Shown here: positions 42,474-52,852 of the stretch, piece after piece
Layout: every line of letters starts with the position of its first letter
How positions within the stretch are numbered: position 1 is the stretch's first letter
DNA from: Spinacia oleracea
Taxonomy: Eukaryota; Streptophyta; Magnoliopsida; Caryophyllales; Amaranthaceae
Reading direction: 5' to 3'
DNA length: 64,000 nt
NCBI RefSeq assembly: GCF_020520425.1
Contig: NC_079492.1
Span: forward strand, 145,359,861-145,423,860
Position numbers and translations under genes: made by a program
Notes under the pieces: model-generated
What the model was told of the DNA's origin: nothing
The model's input: the letters and a program-made list of their open reading frames with translations, nothing else
Database searches by the model: none

Positions 42474-43721
42474 ATGGTGCAAACTAGATCACCCTCCACC
42501 TCACCTGATTGGCTCATTAATCCTAATCCACCACCAAACTTCACATCATTATCCCTTAAACAACGCCTCCAAACTATAGTAGAGAGTAAGCCAGGGTTGT
42601 TGTATGCAATATCTTGGCAATTGACATCTAATGCTAAGAACACCATGACGATGGCGGCGAGCCGCCCTGTGTTGGTGTGTTCAGATGGTTATTTGAAAAG
42701 CTCCGTTAGGAGCAATGTAGTTTCGAAACACAATGAGGGCATGGAAGAGCTTGGGGAGAGAGTTATGTCTGAATGGTTTTACGCCGTGTCGTTAAGCAAA
42801 GTCCTAGAGATTGAGGAAAAGGATATGTTAATAGGGAAAGCCATGAGTTCAGGCACCTATTTGTGGCTAATTGGCTACTCTTCAGGGTGTGAACGGGCGA
42901 AGGAAGCTTTATTGCACAATGTTCGTACTCTGGTGTTCATACCTGTTGTTGCCTCAGGTGAAGTTATTGAAGTTGGATCCTTGGATGAGATCAACGAAGA
43001 TAGGAGCTTAATTGAGCTCACCCGCTTAATATTTAATGGTAATGGTAATGATAATTGTAATAGTAATAGTAATAGTAATAGTAATATTTCCTGCAGCAAA
43101 AGTGGCATCAGAGCTTCTGCAGGTGCGCCTGCAGGTGCAGGCGCACCTGCAGGCACAATGCAGCGTAGCAACCATGTAGAGGCAGAGAGGCAGAGGAGAG
43201 ACAAGCTCAACCAGCGTTTTTACGCGCTACGCGCAGTAGTTCCCTACGTCTCAAAGATGGACAAAGCGTCACTTCTTTCTGATGCAGTCACATACATCAA
43301 CGAGCTTAAAACTTCAGTACAAGAATTGGAAGAACAAATCAGAGGACTTCAATCAGCCAAAAATATTACTGCAGTTAGTACTACTCTTAGTAGTACTAAT
43401 AATACTACGCCACGTATGCATGGTCAGCATCATCTTCCTCATGTGAAAACTAGTGTTTGGGCGGTGGAAGTTGAGGTAGACGTGAAACCGATAGGTAAGC
43501 AAGTGGTAATCCGGGTTCAAACATCGGGTTTGGATCACCCGGAAGCAAGATTAATGAATGTGCTGAAAGAATTGCGTCTGGAAATTTGCTACGCAACAAT
43601 ATCAAATGTCAATGAGGTTGTGTTTCAGAATGTTATTGCTACGTTGCCATCTTATCCTGATGAGATAATTAGTACTCAAGAAGGCTTGACTAATGCTATT
43701 CGTGAGAGGCTGCATTATTGA
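42474..43721 (+). CDS. MYC-type bHLH transcription factor, AtbHLH14-like (IIId)
   Basis: Nuclear DNA-binding protein of 415 aa, single exon, which is usual for subgroup IIId/IIIe bHLHs. The N-terminal bHLH-MYC_N region spans about residues 25-188, with [20 protein letters not shown] at 28-47, WFYAVSLSK at 101-109 and [19 protein letters not shown] at 141-159; the acidic middle of this domain is shorter than in MYC2. A low-complexity linker ([16 protein letters not shown], then [12 protein letters not shown]) occupies 189-227. The bHLH domain is about 232-285 with [10 protein letters not shown]234, E238 and R242 are the E-box-contacting triad. The C-terminal ACT-like domain (about 328-414) starts near [20 protein letters not shown]. 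Subgroup IIId members repress or tune jasmonate responses; this is inferred for this gene. A CACTA MITE and a tandem 30-bp repeat lie upstream. Its last third is duplicated at 48277 and a decayed paralog lies at 53090-61107. Confidence 0.93.
43119..43150. repeat. Inverted repeat inside the bHLH coding sequence
   Basis: GCAGGTGCGCCTGC and its exact inverse GCAGGCGCACCTGC are separated by 4 bp. They encode the Ala-Gly-Pro linker just before the bHLH domain. CAGGTG E-box-like cores occur in it. Confidence 0.85.
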
Positions 43722-44134
43722 TCGATGACCTTAATTTATTGCTGCTTAATTAATTAGTTATGTAAAGTTGGTGTTTTTTTTTGTTTTTTTTTTGGCGTGA
43801 AATGGTCATAAGAGCAATGCAAACTGTGTTACAATTGGGGATAAAGGATATGAGCCGGTAAACTATCATACACAGATTCTCAATATTAACCACAAGATTT
43901 CAAGTCTTACTAGTGAAATATCATGATACTACTTCTTTTTTTTTCTCTTTAGTGGTATGCTCTTGATTGTGATAAAGTTATGTCTTTGTACGTGTGATTA
44001 GTTAATCAATTCATGGTATTATTGGTATATGTGAAGAAGAGTCAAACTACTTACAAATTAAAAAAATCATTGTTTTGTTTGAGATCATTTTTAGAAGATA
44101 AGAGTAAAGAAAACCTAACCTAGTTTCTAGAAGA
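43387..44134 (+). repeat. Duplicated segment, copy 1 (bHLH 3' third plus flank)
   Basis: Runs from codon 305 of the bHLH gene through its stop and about 410 bp of 3' flank, ending TTTCTAGAAGA. It matches 48277-50934 (minus the MULE) with about half a dozen substitutions and a few homopolymer length changes, so roughly 99% identical. It ends exactly where the Helitron-type CTAG end begins. Confidence 0.9.
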
Positions 44135-45002
44135 CTAGTCTTATATGCACGCGATGCGTGCGAGTGTATTAAAAATTTATGCTATTACAACACCTTCAGT
44201 ATAATTATCTTTCGCCCAGTTATGACCTGCCCTAAACTGCCCAAAGACGGAGTTATCATGTCAGAAAATCTGCTCAGAACCACAACCAAGTTGGATGTCT
44301 TCAACCAAAAAGATCAGAGTTGCTACCCAACGCCTTAGATTTCATCACAACACAAATAGCAAAGAATAAACTATGAATTGATATGTATAAAAGCCTTTCC
44401 ATGATCATATGACACAAAAGAAACAAAGTCACTGATTAAGATAAACCACATTCCTATAAATTTATCTAGCATCACAGCCATTACACCATAAGGAACATAT
44501 TTTCTCCTACGGAATTGGTATTTGGATGCAACCTAACATTCACATCTATATACAATGAATTAAAGTAAATATGATATTAGTGTATTTAACAAAGTAATTC
44601 TCGGTAGTAGGAGAAGTCGTCTATTTGAAAGGCTCACGCGCGGCAAGACCAATAGATCGACCTACAGAACACTCCCGTGTTCTTTATCTCGTCATAGCAA
44701 GAAACAATATACTTCATGCACATGCATGTAAACAACCAACATTCCGCAACGCTATCATAGTTGGAATAACTATGAAAGAGAGATATAAGAGCTTCAGTGT
44801 GTTTAACAATCAGATCAAGATCATTGATCTCACTGAAATCCTCTAAGATAAGGTAAATTATCATCATCAACTCTAATCAACCCACAAATTAGTCACATAA
44901 AAACATAATTTTTGAGGAAAAATAAAGCTGAAACAATAGTTTTTCAAAGGTTTACTCAGAGTTCCAAAGGTCAGAAACTCTAGTCCACACTAAGTTATCG
45001 GG

Positions 45003-45075
45003 TCCATGAGCACGGCCCGAGGAACGAACCGATCGCAACTCACTTTGGTGTAGTACACATGAAAGATCTAACTCT
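45003..45075 (-). pseudogene. Beta-tubulin-like fragment
   Basis: The minus strand reads ELDLSCVYYTKVSCDRFVPR followed by AVLMD, then diverges and stops. Beta-tubulin has [20 protein letters not shown] at the same place, so the run VYY..-SC.[10 protein letters not shown] is a good match to the end of the first exon region. Conserved E and N of YYNEA are changed and the tubulin sequence stops after LMD, so it is a captured or decayed piece. It lies in the Helitron-type insert. Confidence 0.55.
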
Positions 45076-47538
45076 CCTTCTGCTCCCCGAGCCTCCTGAT
45101 TGTACTTCTCACGGTTTCTGCACTGGCGGTGCTGTTATTCAAACATAGAAAACAAATAAGTAAAGAAATAAAAAGAAAGAAATTATGTATAATTAGCATA
45201 AATGGATGCATAAAACTAATACCCCAATCAACAAAACGTCACAAATGTGAACTACAAACTCAATCAAGCTATTGAGTGGAATCCTTGGTCACTACCAATA
45301 GTTGTTGGAATTTCGAAAGATGCCTTCAGAGTATCTGTGAATCAGAAGCCTAAAAAAGTTTGTTGTTTGACACTTCTACCAGCTCTTAAGACGTTGTATG
45401 GGATCTCAAATCGTATCATATTCATTTGTATCAGACAATCAACTCTAATCTGAACTCTGAAACGCAAGTATATGTATATGAACTGCTGCTAATCTGCTAT
45501 AGACTTTAGTGTTAAGGGATAGAGAATACATTTCATCAATTTTTTCTAGGTCATTTTATGGGTCTAAATATATAAATATTTTGTTTTTATTCTGGTTATA
45601 TTAGGCATCTCCTTCCTCTGTTGTTTTTCTTATTCCATATGAGTGGCGTTGCAATGCTAGTACTTCACCTATTTCTATACATGTATATGTTGACCTAATA
45701 AGGATAATATCACAATTATCATAAGTTGAATGCTGGTATGTTGGTATTTAGACTACTTTCTGTTTATATTAACTGCATGCCAGCTGCAGTGTTGCTGAAG
45801 CAGAATAAACGTTGTATGCAGCACCTTTACCTGATATACATAAATTCAAAGTGGTTGGATAATCATTCTAATAGATTAATAACATTCTTCTTTCTCGTTA
45901 CTTATCATTTTTTCTTGTTCTTCTTTTAATAAATTCCTTCAAAATCAAGGCTTTCTAATCGGCGTTTCAAATGAAAATGATATTCAAGTACTACTGATTT
46001 TACATCTCAAAAATCCATCTATAAATTCAATTTTTTTTTCCACTGATTATTCTGCTGGCCTATTTCAGTTTAATAACCACTATAAAGCATTAAATGAAAA
46101 CATCTCACACAGTTGAATAAGAAAGTATGTTTCACAAAATTTAATCAATTAAGTTGGTAATAAAAAATTATATAAAATAATTATAAGGCAAGAAAAAATG
46201 TTCGTAAAGTTCGTCTAAGGAAAAATTAGACATCATCTCTATTTAAGAACAAAATACAATTTAATACTCATGGCCATACGAAAATATAAATTGTAATACT
46301 AAAGTAAAGAAATCAAACAATGTACGGAGTAATAATCATACCCTTTAAACAATGTACTACGTGATACTTACGCGCATAATTGGTTCTTCTTTTGGCATTT
46401 TCGCGTCCTTTTTGTTACGGGGTGAGTGATTGTCCTTGTTGTCATTTTTTAACCTTCCATCTCAACATTCGATCTTGCATAACTTTATCTTCATTTTCTT
46501 CTATCATAAAACTCCAAAATTACACATTAAATTATCAATATTATTACAATATTTAAATCTCTAATATTATTATAACCTTAAACATATTACTTAACCAAAT
46601 TACTTTTATTATTTTTTCTTAATTAAAGTCATAGAGCATGTAGTCTAAAATACGATTTGACCCGCTCACCTGAAAATAGGGAAGCCTAAAGGTCGTAACT
46701 CGTAAGGGTAGTAAGACCTTTAATCTAAGACAATCATAAGTAATCAAAGACCACTAAAAGAGTAAAAGGCTCTTATCTATCAAAACCTAAACAGTAAACT
46801 CCATTCTCTTATTTGGCATTAACAACAACACCACCAACATCAACGAAGGAGATATAAGTGAAAATGGAGACAATAATCCCCACCTTTCTCTCCTCCCGTT
46901 GTTTCATCTCAAGAGACTCAAATCATCAACTATGTCCTGATTATCTCTCCCTCCATAATTTTATCACCCTTGCACATAAGACTTTCCGCTGAGGCGCCGG
47001 CTATTGGAACCGTCCAATTAACTTATCCATGTTGTTGGAGTTCATGTGGGGTTTATATCGACAAATCTCGAATTCGATTAAGACGACTCTTGGATCACTA
47101 CCCATTTAAATACGACATGCATATCAGGTATCTGCACCTATTGGGGTTTTCGTCGTCGTTTCGCTACCGGTGGTGTGGTGTGGTGATATATACTTTTGTT
47201 TTAGTTAATTTTGAATTCCTTGGTCTTGGGTGTCAGTGAATTTTTTGGCTTGATAATCTTATTGATTTTTAACATTTATTTGAGAATTGTATTTTTTTGG
47301 CTTGATAATCTTATTGTTTTTATTACCAACTAATAAACTACAATTGTAGTCTATCACGATCCAAAACTCAAAGTAATTGGCGTTTTTTTTAAGACATACC
47401 CAGATGAGAAAATGAACCAAATACATGAAGAATTAGAAATAAGAATGTTTTTTTTTTCAATTGATTGACAAAAGATTGTATTTTTCAATCAAATTAGCAA
47501 TTAAACAAAATGGTAAGAGGATATTCATAGTTTCATAC

Positions 47539-47880
47539 CTGATGAAGAAGCCATCGCCTCAGTAAGAACTTCACTCAAAAAAAATCAACGTGAGGGTTTT
47601 GAAACCCTAATTAATCGACCGATGCCGCCTCCTTCTGGTTAATAAAAAATTACACGAAATTGACATAAGTAAAGCAAAATAGAAACCCTAATTAATCGAA
47701 AACAAAAAATTGGGAAACTTAACTGGTTAGATGATGATGAGGGTTTTGATTTTTGAAGAGATTCAACGTGAAAAGGGCCGACCGATGCCGCCTCCTTCTC
47801 CATCTCCATCTCAACCAATTGATGATTAAAAAACCTCAATAACACAAAGATCAAACGAATAAGAACATAAGTTTTAATCC
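47539..47880 (-). pseudogene. Possible 5' UTR and first exon of a captured gene
   Basis: On the minus strand, UTR-like sequence leads to ATGGCTTCTTCATCAG (MASSS) at 47554-47539, followed at once by a GTATGA donor. Further coding exons were not found between here and the left edge of the insert. The short segment CCGATGCCGCCTCCTTCT occurs twice (near 47620 and 47784), suggesting a local duplication. Product unknown. Confidence 0.3.
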
Positions 47881-48276
47881 CAATTTACCGAATCTTTGAG
47901 AAGAGAATAGAACTGAAAAGTGGCGAGTTATCTCACCCGGATCTCCAAAAGATCAGACGTTGATGGTGATGGCGGTGGCGAAGGCGAGAGGCGGAGGAGA
48001 GAGAGTCTGCGTGTGCGGTGAAAGAAACACAAAATATTTAGGGTTTGGAATGGAGGACGGGGTTTGGTGGAAGAGGATTAGTGGAAGAAGATCGAAGAAG
48101 ATGAAGAGGAAGGAGAGAGAAAACGGGAGGGAGGTTGAGGGACGCCGAAGACCTAGGAGAGAGAAAGAGAGGTATGTGCGAGAGTGAAAGGCTGGGGGGT
48201 TTACTTAGGGGGTAATTTCGTCAATTCGCAGGGGGACACGAAAAGTTATTTTACTATTATGCCCTCAGCTGTTCCT

Positions 48277-48611
48277 TTAGTAGTACTAATAATACTACGC
48301 CACGTATGCATGGTCAGCATCATCTTCCTCATGTGAAAACTAGTTTTTGGGCGGTGGAAGTTGAGGTAGACGTGAAACCGATAGGTAAGCAAGTGGTAAT
48401 CCGGGTTCAAACATCGGGTTTGGATCACCCGGAAGCAAGATTAATGAATGTGCTGAAAGAATTGCGTCTGGAAATTTGCTACGCAACAATATCAAATGTC
48501 AATGAGGTTGTGTTTCAGAATGTTATTGCTACGTTGCCATCTTATCCTGATGAGATAATTAGTACTCAAGAAGGCTTGACTAATGCTATTCGTGAGAGGC
48601 TGCATTATTGA
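48277..48611 (+). pseudogene. Truncated duplicate of the bHLH C-terminus
   Basis: Identical to codons 305-415 of the 42474 gene apart from V328 to F, and read through to the same stop. It has no bHLH domain and no own promoter. If transcribed from an upstream start, it could give a free ACT-like dimerisation domain from the ATG at 48306; this is inference. Its 3' flank continues to 48940, is interrupted by a MULE, then resumes at 50867-50934. Confidence 0.85.
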
Positions 48612-48940
48612 TCGATGACCTTAATTTATTGCTGCTTAATTAATTAGTTATGTAAAGTTGGTGTTTTTTTTTGGCGTGAAATGGTCATAAGAGCAATGCA
48701 AATTGTGTTACAATTGGGGATAAAGGATATGAGCCGGTAAACTATCATACACAGATCCTCAATATTAACCACAAGATTTCAAGTCTTACTAATGAAATAT
48801 CATGATACTACTTTTTTTTCTCTTTAGTGGTATGCTCTTGATCGTGATAAAGTTATGTCTTTGTACGTGTGATTAGTTAATCAATTCATGGTATTATTGG
48901 TATATGTGAAGAAGAGTCAAACTACTTACAAATTAAAAAA

Positions 48941-50866
48941 CGGATTTTTCATGAAATACCCCTCAATTTTCACGAAATTCACCAAATGCCCCTCGACTTT
49001 CAGAAATTCACCAAATGCCCCTCACCTTTAATATAATACCCAAACTACCCTTACTAATGACGCGCCGTTAGTGCTCCGTTAGCCAACTTTCAAATTCACC
49101 AAATACCCCTATTTTAATACTAATTTCACCAAATACCCCTTTGTTGAAAAATATTTCACCAAATACTTATATTTTTAAAGAAAAATTTTGATGCAATTAT
49201 TTATGCCCAAATTTCTCCGCCTATATGGTTTATGCCCAAGTTCTAACTCTTTCTCTCCCAATTACCTATATCATTTTTTTTTTGTCTTGATTGAAAGCTA
49301 GCCAATAATATATAGGGACTAGAGAGTATTAGTGTTTTATATTGATGTACAGAATAACCCAGATCATTCAATTACAAACCAAATACAATAGATCTTAAAA
49401 GAGAGTTTAAGCTACTTTATGATACATCCTCAATAGCACCAATGCAAATCTTACTGCTGGAAGGTTTATGAAACCAATCACTGTAATGTTGGTGTGACTT
49501 CGATTAATGGAATAAAAGCAACAAATTATATATCAAAAAAAGACTGTAAAGACCCATGAGTTAGGATCTTGATCAAAGTAACTAAATTTTTTTGCGGCAA
49601 TTGTTCTCAAGAAATCTGAAAACTCGGTGTTTTCAGTCACCAAACCACATAGTCTCTAACGAGCCTCGAAATCTAAGAAAAATAGATAATAGGTGCTCTT
49701 TGAAGAGAAAACAATCACCAAAACAAGAATCAACTTTCTCTAACAAAAAATAAACTTCTAGTCCAAATTACTAAACAAACAATCACCAGCTGTAGATTCA
49801 ATCCCATTTATCCATAGCTACCTCTGTGCAAGGAACCAAAAGCCAAAAAAAAAAGAAAAAATTTTACAGAGCCCTACTGAAAAGATTGAAAGATCTTAAT
49901 TTACATGAACCTGGTTCAAATGTTGTTCAGATTTGTGAAATAAGAAGTAGAACATTGGGATTCAGCAATTGTAAGATCAGCCACCATCTCGCCATTGTGA
50001 ATAGGTAAGACCGGGAAATGGTGAACGCTAAAGACCCAACAAAGCCGCCGCATCCGCCACCGTCGATAGGTAAGATCGGCCCATACACCGTCTTCCTCAC
50101 TCCTCTTGTCACCGCTAAACCCATTTCCGAGCCTCCAGTCGGGAATCACCAGGAATCATAAATTAATTTCTGAAGAAAATTGGGGGATTAAAGATGGGTT
50201 TTCCAGAAGTTTGATGTTGGGTTTGGGTTTCAAATGTTTGCTTTGAGGAATAATTGAAGATGGGTTTCAGATGGGATTAGTGGATTGCTGGTTCGGGAGT
50301 AAGAATAAGATTTGGAGTTGGGCATTAGTTATTTGGTTATGGAGGTGTGTGGTTCCATCAGAGTCGTTGTTGCAGCACGGGAGATTGAGAAGATAGAGCG
50401 GCTATTTAAATGCGGTGGTGGTGATGGTGGATCTGTGGTGGTTCCGAGATAGAGAATTTGTGAACGTTTTGCTATGATTTACCTACTCCGGCTTTACGAT
50501 GGAGTTCTCCAGTGAAACGGGGGAGATGAGAAGAAATGGGAAGATAGAAGAAAAAAGAAAAAGAAAAATTGGATGCAGTTAAGGTTGATGAATGAGGAAG
50601 AAGGCGGGAGAGAGAGGAGCAGTTGAGGATGCAGTTAAGAGAGGAGCAGTCAGCAGTGGTAGGGAAAGGTTAAGGAAAGGTTAAGGCTCCCAAAAGCAAA
50701 ATAAGGGTAAAATAGTAAAGTCATGCTAATGGAGACTTAACGTCCGTTAAGTGTAAGGGTATTTGGGGTATTAAGTCATTTGTGAGGGGCATTTGGTGAA
50801 TTTCTGAAAGTCGAGGGGCATTTGGTGAATTTCGTGAAAATTAAGGGGTATTTCATGAAAAATCCG
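48941..50866. mobile_element. Mutator-like element (MULE) 1, probably Pack-MULE
   Basis: Ends CGGATTTTTCATGAAATACC and GGTATTTCATGAAAAATCCG with a 9-bp duplication ATTAAAAAA (48932-48940 and 50867-50875). Inverted repeats extend about 150 bp and contain repeated TTCACCAAATGCCCCT units. The empty site is visible in copy 1 of the duplication (near 44060), which confirms the borders. The 1.9-kb interior is GC-richer than its surroundings and holds a gene-like ORF at 50018; no transposase seen. Confidence 0.9.
50018..50161 (+). CDS. 47-aa ORF captured in the MULE
   Basis: Starts MVNAKDPTKPPHPPPSIGKI and continues GPYTVFLTPLVTAKPISEPP to a TAA stop. The proline-rich PPPSIGKIGPYTVFLTP run looks like real coding sequence from a small plant protein, but I cannot name the family with certainty. 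It lies within a transposon, so it is probably a captured exon; whether it is expressed is unknown. Confidence 0.45.
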   Translation: MVNAKDPTKPPHPPPSIGKIGPYTVFLTPLVTAKPISEPPVGNHQES

Positions 50867-51051
50867 ATTAAAAAATCATTATTTCGTTTGAGATCATTTT
50901 TAGAAGATAAGAGTAAAGAAAACCTAACCTAGTTTCTAGAAGATGAGTACTCCGTATTAGCCTAATGTACATGCATTGTTTTGAAAAATTATTTTGCAAT
51001 TTTTGCTAGACCATAATATGTACGATGTATCTCCATTTCCAAGACTGTTCT

Positions 51052-52135: not shown

Positions 52136-52852
52136 TTAGAATCCCAAATTCTTGTATGAGACTGTCCTCACCATCAACTGATTAGTTCACACTTGCGAAT
52201 TTAGGTATGTTACTTTTATAGTTTAGACACGTTACTTTTTTTTATAATTTTAGAGGAGGTTTTTTTTTTTAGTTTAGGTATATTACTTCTATAGTTTATA
52301 CATGTTACTTTTTTTATACGGAGTAGTTTTGGGGGATATACCTTCTTAGTTTAGGTATGTTACTTCCATAGTTTATACAGGTTATTTTTTTTATACGGAG
52401 TAGTTTTAGGGGAGATACCTTCTTAGTTTAGGTATGTTACTTCTATAGTTTAGACATGTTACTTTTTTTTTTAATAATTTTAGAGGAGGTATTTTTTTTA
52501 GTTTAGGTATGTTACTTCTATAGTTTAGACATGTTACTTTTTTTATAATTTTAGATGAGGTACTTTTTTAGTTTAGGTATGTTATTTCTATAGTTTAGAC
52601 ATGTTATTTTTTTTATACGGAACAGTTTTAGGGGAGGTACATTTTTAGTTTAGGTATGTTACTTCTATAGTTTAGACATGTTACTTTTTTTTATATATAC
52701 TTTTAGAGGAGGTACGTTTTTAGTTTAGGTATGTTACTTCTATAGTTTAGATCTGTTACTTTTTTTTATAGTTTTAGAAGAGGTACGCTATTGGTTTCGC
52801 GCTCGTCACACCATCAAGTTGATGGTGTGACTGGTCTCACAGGAGACGTGCT
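52136..52852. repeat. Array of about 80-bp units with terminal palindrome
   Basis: AGTTTAGGTATGTTACTTCT plus ATAGTTTAGACATGTTACTT and an ATTTTAGAGGAGGTAC block repeat about eight times (52200-52790). The block is bounded by GTATGAGACTGTCC on the left and GGTCTCACAGGAGAC on the right, with a 27-bp palindrome GTCACACCATCAA-G-TTGATGGTGTGAC at 52805-52831. It interrupts a unit of the 125-bp array, so it behaves as one inserted element. Confidence 0.7.

Follow-up and report, generated by a model that had tools for sequence, protein, structure and literature searches.

A spinach Helitron with an exact 3' end and an aberrant 5' joint bearing a 748-bp target duplication

We analysed a 64,000-nucleotide stretch of the Spinacia oleracea genome (assembly GCF_020520425.1, contig NC_079492.1, positions 145,359,861 to 145,423,860 of the forward strand; hereafter the window, whose own numbering is used throughout), in which a non-autonomous Helitron lies between two 748-bp direct repeats, the first of which holds the 3' end of a gene for a MYC-type basic helix-loop-helix (bHLH) transcription factor. 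Helitrons are defined partly by the absence of target duplications. The best explanation of this insertion is that one end was made normally and the other was repaired, and the window copy is one of three such copies in a subfamily of six. In our judgement the transposase probably completed the joint at the 3' end but not that at the 5' end, and the remaining gap was closed by host end joining that involved templated synthesis, of the kind carried out by DNA polymerase theta.

Structure of the insertion

Base by base, the two repeat copies (Table 1) agree in 719 of 726 gap-free columns, with seven mismatches and three indels of 11, 4 and 1 bp (97% identity by BLAST, gaps included), which bears out the ~99% identity of the original prediction; the alignment stops three bases inside each border and thus leaves out the TTA and AGA common to both copies. 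Past the repeat borders the arms share no further similarity in the stretch aligned. When the 894 Mb genome was scanned (six large contigs were seen among the matches), everything outside the repeats gave just two weak matches to the 748-bp stretch, of 72–73% over ~110 bp, and the repeats are therefore not a product of chance. Copy 2 ends at 50943, nine bases beyond the end first given for it (50934), and is split by a later insertion which, following the original prediction, we take to be a Mutator-like element (MULE). This element lies inside copy 2 with a target duplication of its own.

The exact Helitron 3' end expected at the left border is present: in the sense of the element, CTAG abuts the target T, and a 6-bp hairpin (−6.9 kcal/mol, a fold equalled by 8 of 200 shuffled sequences) stands 12 nt from the end. 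The A to which this end is joined has its empty form in the sequence AGA/TGAG (a slash marks a joint or insertion point), which closes copy 2 just as had been read there. The 3' joint of the window copy is normal.

The right border differs from its first description, according to which it had no Helitron 5' end. Comparison with the family reveals such an end, minus its last 11 nt and hence without the TC terminus that the family itself possesses. In the orientation of the window, the family reads CCTTTATATAATAGAGA/T at this place, the window copy CCTTTA/GTAGTACT (that is, CCTTTA/GTAG...). Bases 48277–48279 (TTA) are common to the element and copy 2; the microhomology is thus of 3 bp and not the TTAG initially proposed, because the family reads TTTAT there. 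Judged by its relatives, the insert is by descent a whole Helitron with an aberrant joint, short of 11 nt at its 5' end. No open reading frame of 90 or more amino acids was found inside it.

As expected of a Helitron, the element belongs to a dispersed family with common termini: at up to two mismatches, its 26-nt 3' terminus has 2052 matches in the genome and the 22-nt 5' terminus 703. Freedom from target duplication, another hallmark of the group, is lacking at the window (748 bp) and also at a sister copy on C5 (11 bp).

Sister copies in the subfamily

Six copies, ~99% identical in the end stretches compared, form the subfamily of the window element; the copy at C4:102.66 Mb shows only 91% identity over its first 300 bp, owing to a gap, and the copies on C2 and at C4:9.61 Mb are interrupted. 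The 3' end is exact in the window copy and in those at C5:41.14 Mb and C4:9.61 Mb, whereas their 5' ends have lost 11, 10 and 14 nt and are followed by the 748-bp direct duplication, an 11-bp duplication and ~93 bp of filler, respectively. The copies at C3:76.84 Mb and C4:102.66 Mb have canonical A/T joints on both sides, and the 5' end at C2:66.76 Mb is canonical too, as seen in the list of 5'-terminus matches. If truncations fell uniformly over 4142 bp, the chance that all three would lie in the last 14 nt is 4e-8, for an interval picked after the fact. The repeated loss of just 10–14 nt out of 4.1 kb therefore ties these events to the transposon end.

At C5:41.14 Mb the 11-mer TACTATACATA abuts both joints, a length that none of 210 mismatched flank pairs reached (longest, 9 bp). 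This copy sits in a dispersed repeat, so that empty paralogues of its site exist, and in all ten that were fetched a flank model with one copy of the 11-mer beats a two-copy model by 14–20 bits; the ten are a subset of more matches, and seven are nearly identical to one another and so not independent. Set against these empty paralogues, the right side of the C5 copy has an extra CATA ahead of TATTCTATC.

Within the filler at C4:9.61 Mb, 20 bp exactly repeat, in direct orientation, flank sequence that lies 49 bp from the 3' joint (E 1.6e-5), and a further 40 bp are inverted and match the left flank at 35 of 40 positions and three local repeats, 21–83 kb away, at 38 of 40. In a shuffle control for this filler, a common 14-mer occurred in 1 of 500 trials.

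Joints elsewhere in the family

Among canonical pairs of 3' and 5' ends on C1, nine of ten are without a short flanking duplication and the tenth lies in a TA microsatellite, in a test that detects only duplications starting no more than 25 bp away from the joint and is blind to a long repeat of the window type. Two of the canonical subfamily copies could be examined on both sides, and neither showed a long flanking duplication within 1.5 kb.

We then compared 5' ends over 65 loci with a candidate end, three of which had no core. The remaining 62 comprise five subfamily loci, three aberrant and two canonical, to which the C2 copy was added from the 5'-terminus list, and 57 others; of 73 places in all, 17 had already been seen to be canonical (the C2 subfamily copy being one) and do not enter the 57. 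Outside the subfamily 52 of 57 ends are canonical at up to two mismatches and five are not, against three of six within it (Fisher P 0.023, or P = 0.002 if L096, the sole unexplained outside case, is counted alone). No 3' end was found for L096 within the 5 kb fetched, nor for L070, L078 and L091 in 5–5.6 kb. A genome-wide query for 5' ends in which the 16-nt core is exact and the next three positions deviate gave three matches, on C1, C4 and C5; it overlooks the copy in the window and, we estimate, over half of all ends of this kind.

One of the five outside ends, L045 (C3:81.39 Mb), was considered as a fourth case and dropped, all five empty paralogues fetched for it indicating a plain A/T insertion; ~10 nt are deleted inside its 5' end, and it was still counted as non-canonical. 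L045/L101 is an A/T insertion in a high-copy repeat with many empty paralogues. A short 5' end at C1:66.6 Mb lies inside a TA microsatellite and is uninformative. The 5' end of L046, another of the five, joins a CTCCCTCCG repeat, which is probably a later insertion. At two places, L083/L084 (C4:4898159–4898213) and L087 (C4:137317762), Helitron 5' ends stand head-to-head, one Helitron having apparently inserted at an internal A/T of the other's 5' terminus (TTATA/TAAAGG); L084, one side of such a pair, is counted among the five. L063 (C3:131104633), also one of the five, has a 5' end minus its last few nucleotides directly against the 3' end of another Helitron.

Features of the window

Table 1. 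Position, strand and supporting evidence of the features discussed, in window numbering
Feature	Position	Strand	Evidence
Intact bHLH (MYC-type) transcription-factor open reading frame, 415 amino acids	42474..43721	+	Open reading frame; Pfam bHLH-MYC_N 2.1e-20, HLH 6.2e-14
Copy 1: gene 3' end and downstream DNA, abutting the Helitron 3' end	43387..44134	+	BLAST, alignment
Non-autonomous Helitron running from its 3' end (44135) to a 5' end minus the last 11 nt (48279)	44135..48279	-	Family comparison
Helitron 3' terminus: CTAG end and hairpin with arms GCACGC and GCGTGC	44135..44161	-	Sequence, fold
Shortened Helitron 5' terminus	48250..48279	-	Family end in window orientation
Copy 2: orphan gene end, MULE-interrupted, closing with the unoccupied site	48277..50943	+	Alignment
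Later MULE (class presumed) within copy 2, 9-bp target duplication ATTAAAAAA	48941..50866		Terminal inverted repeats of ~142 bp at 87%

Farther along, self-BLAST picks out tandem repeats at 52200–52800, imperfect and ~75 bp in unit length.

Proposed mechanism and alternatives

A Helitron transposase would have integrated the element at an A/T site just downstream of the bHLH gene and made the 3' joint, CTAG to T, in the normal way. The 5' joint would then have failed, the target 3'-OH at A not receiving the 5'-TC end of the element; this 3'-OH would have been extended by 748 nt along the still empty target, and the extended strand joined through the TTA microhomology to a Helitron 5' end trimmed by 11 nt. 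We propose a failure of the 5' joint because all three aberrant copies combine a normal 3' joint with additional local DNA at the 5' joint, which in the window copy is precisely what extension of the A along the empty target would give. The agent was likely host end joining with slipping templated synthesis, for example polymerase theta-mediated end joining, which is a candidate because of the microhomology at the window and the local, partly inverted filler at C4:9.61 Mb; at C5 the 11-nt repeat stands at a joint without microhomology. A failure of like kind on different templates may have copied an 11-nt stretch of the target at C5, probably with a 4-nt false start beforehand that left the CATA, and at C4:9.61 Mb two pieces of local sequence, one of 40 nt inverted and one of 20 nt direct, as a patchwork. 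The product would be a Helitron that bears, at its 5' joint, filler or a duplication of the target, varying in length from case to case. The core of the original prediction, a normal 3' joint at A/T and a duplication arising from abnormal 5' resolution by synthesis or template switching, is strengthened by the two sister copies with a like scar, while its missing 5' end, its TTAG and its end of copy 2 have given way.

Several observations weigh against this explanation. The events number only three, and the empty-site comparison comes from paralogues of the C5 site and not from an orthologue of the window locus. At C5 these paralogues read G/T in seven cases, A/T in two and A/C in one, so that we infer A/T as the exact target there, and the lack of microhomology at the C5 5' joint belongs on the same side of the balance. 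About 31 bp of the C4:9.61 Mb filler has no source that we could find, and the original target was not reconstructed; the ends of this copy lie 11 kb apart and those of the C2 copy 34 kb apart, and we infer their pairing from identity and orientation. The subfamily has the same 5' terminus as the family, and no cause was found for frequent failure in a subfamily of low divergence. The part given to polymerase theta is suggested by the scar alone.

The relative ages of duplication and insertion also count here. The window element carries seven private substitutions in 3545 compared sites, and the repeat copies differ by seven over 726 sites and two branches; a split of 7:7 or more under simultaneous origin has P 0.08, or P 0.02 for the untranslated region only, at an approximate site count. 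On these counts the duplication tends, weakly, to appear the older of the two. This could be compatible with one event, by chance or through error-prone synthesis; alternatively, the duplication could have come first.

The alternative that survives best, itself unlikely, is a later repair: a canonical insertion came first, and in a heterozygote a subsequent break at the 5' end was repaired by copying 748 bp from the empty homologue and rejoining a trimmed 5' end. Unequal exchange of the filled and empty homologues is a variant with the identical product. The structure so produced is the same as that seen, the C5 copy would be explained too, a nick by the transposase could arise, for example, during use as a donor, and, according to the Helraiser work, the transposase cuts at the 5' TC end in vitro. 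Against this stand the heterozygosity and the further event that it requires at all three loci, and a prediction that the duplication is younger than the insertion, whereas the substitution counts lean the opposite way; the older-looking duplication therefore argues, weakly, against repair from an empty homologue.

Less probable is that two nicks 748 bp apart made a staggered break whose 5' overhangs were filled in, with the Helitron captured as filler. Such patch-type repair accounts for duplications of any length and is, as we understand it, described for plants, but passive capture predicts neither that the CTAG/T joint is exact in each of the three copies nor that the opposite end has lost as little as 10–14 nt. 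A tandem duplication that came first, with the Helitron then landing precisely on its junction and a short stretch between two TTA repeats of the element's 5' end being deleted afterwards, appears slightly less probable again: the old junction would be AGA/TTAG, an A/T site, and the substitution counts permit an older duplication, but this account requires three separate events, one of them at a single dinucleotide, and leaves the sister copies unexplained. An assembly artefact in which the arms are a mis-joined haplotype pair is very improbable, since 99%-alike arms could be two alleles but would hardly lack similarity past their borders in the stretch aligned, hold a MULE in one arm and have Helitron ends as borders.

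To our knowledge, the order and independence of the two Helitron strand transfers are unsettled. If a failed 5' joint is indeed what the window records, an exact 3' end beside a repaired 5' end would show that 3' transfer can finish without 5' transfer, and there would be a further route to duplicated gene ends. We put forward the wider generalization as possible rather than probable: that the 3' and 5' transfers are separable, that a failed 5' transfer leaves the target 3'-OH as a primer for a host polymerase, that Helitrons may in this way make duplications of 11–748 bp, in some subfamilies not rarely, and that this may be a route to partial gene duplications. Such insertions would elude assays that require full termini, and in a wheat Helitron study the TEd-seq pipeline demanded exact matches to the extremities of the element.

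Comparison with known systems

Like canonical Helitrons of plants and the bat Helraiser, the window copy has a 3' CTAG with a hairpin, an A/T target and a dispersed family with common termini; unlike them, its 5' end is incomplete and a target duplication is present. The Helraiser papers state that Helitrons make no target duplication, report canonical junctions for 10 of 10 sequenced insertions and place 46 of 1,751 insertions at sites other than AT. The rolling-circle model begins with transfer of the element's 5' end to the target and finishes, after copying, with the joining of its 3' end to the 5' end of the target. Within the literature searched, mostly open-access and represented by partial texts (including PMC4778049, PMC5876387, PMC13286980, PMC10095026, PMC8395108 and PMC2721414), no Helitron target duplications at damaged 5' ends are described. 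In vitro work has the Helraiser transposase cutting the bottom strand of the left end at an internal AT; the truncation point of the window copy coincides with an internal A/T, a likeness that is only suggestive. In Arabidopsis the polymerase theta homologue TEBICHI influences how genes close to Helitrons are expressed, which we note as a curiosity rather than as evidence.

Aberrant Helraiser circles and the circles of transgenic maize Helitrons likewise show Helitron ends joined imprecisely, the maize junctions containing deletions, partly with microhomology; all of these junctions, however, belong to circles and not to integrated elements, and the damage may affect either end or both. The T-DNA of Agrobacterium, integrated through end joining of the polymerase theta type, is alike in having a nicking protein on the 5' end, small terminal deletions, microhomology and filler whose sequence derives from other places, but it has no transposase-made exact end at A/T, and its larger deletions are at the 3' end, the reverse of the window case.

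A long direct duplication around inserted DNA is also the product of patch-mediated double-strand break repair, a term that appears in papers on rice and melon. There the likeness ends: what was inserted in the window is a transposon, and one of its ends is joined exactly, at the kind of site that it prefers.

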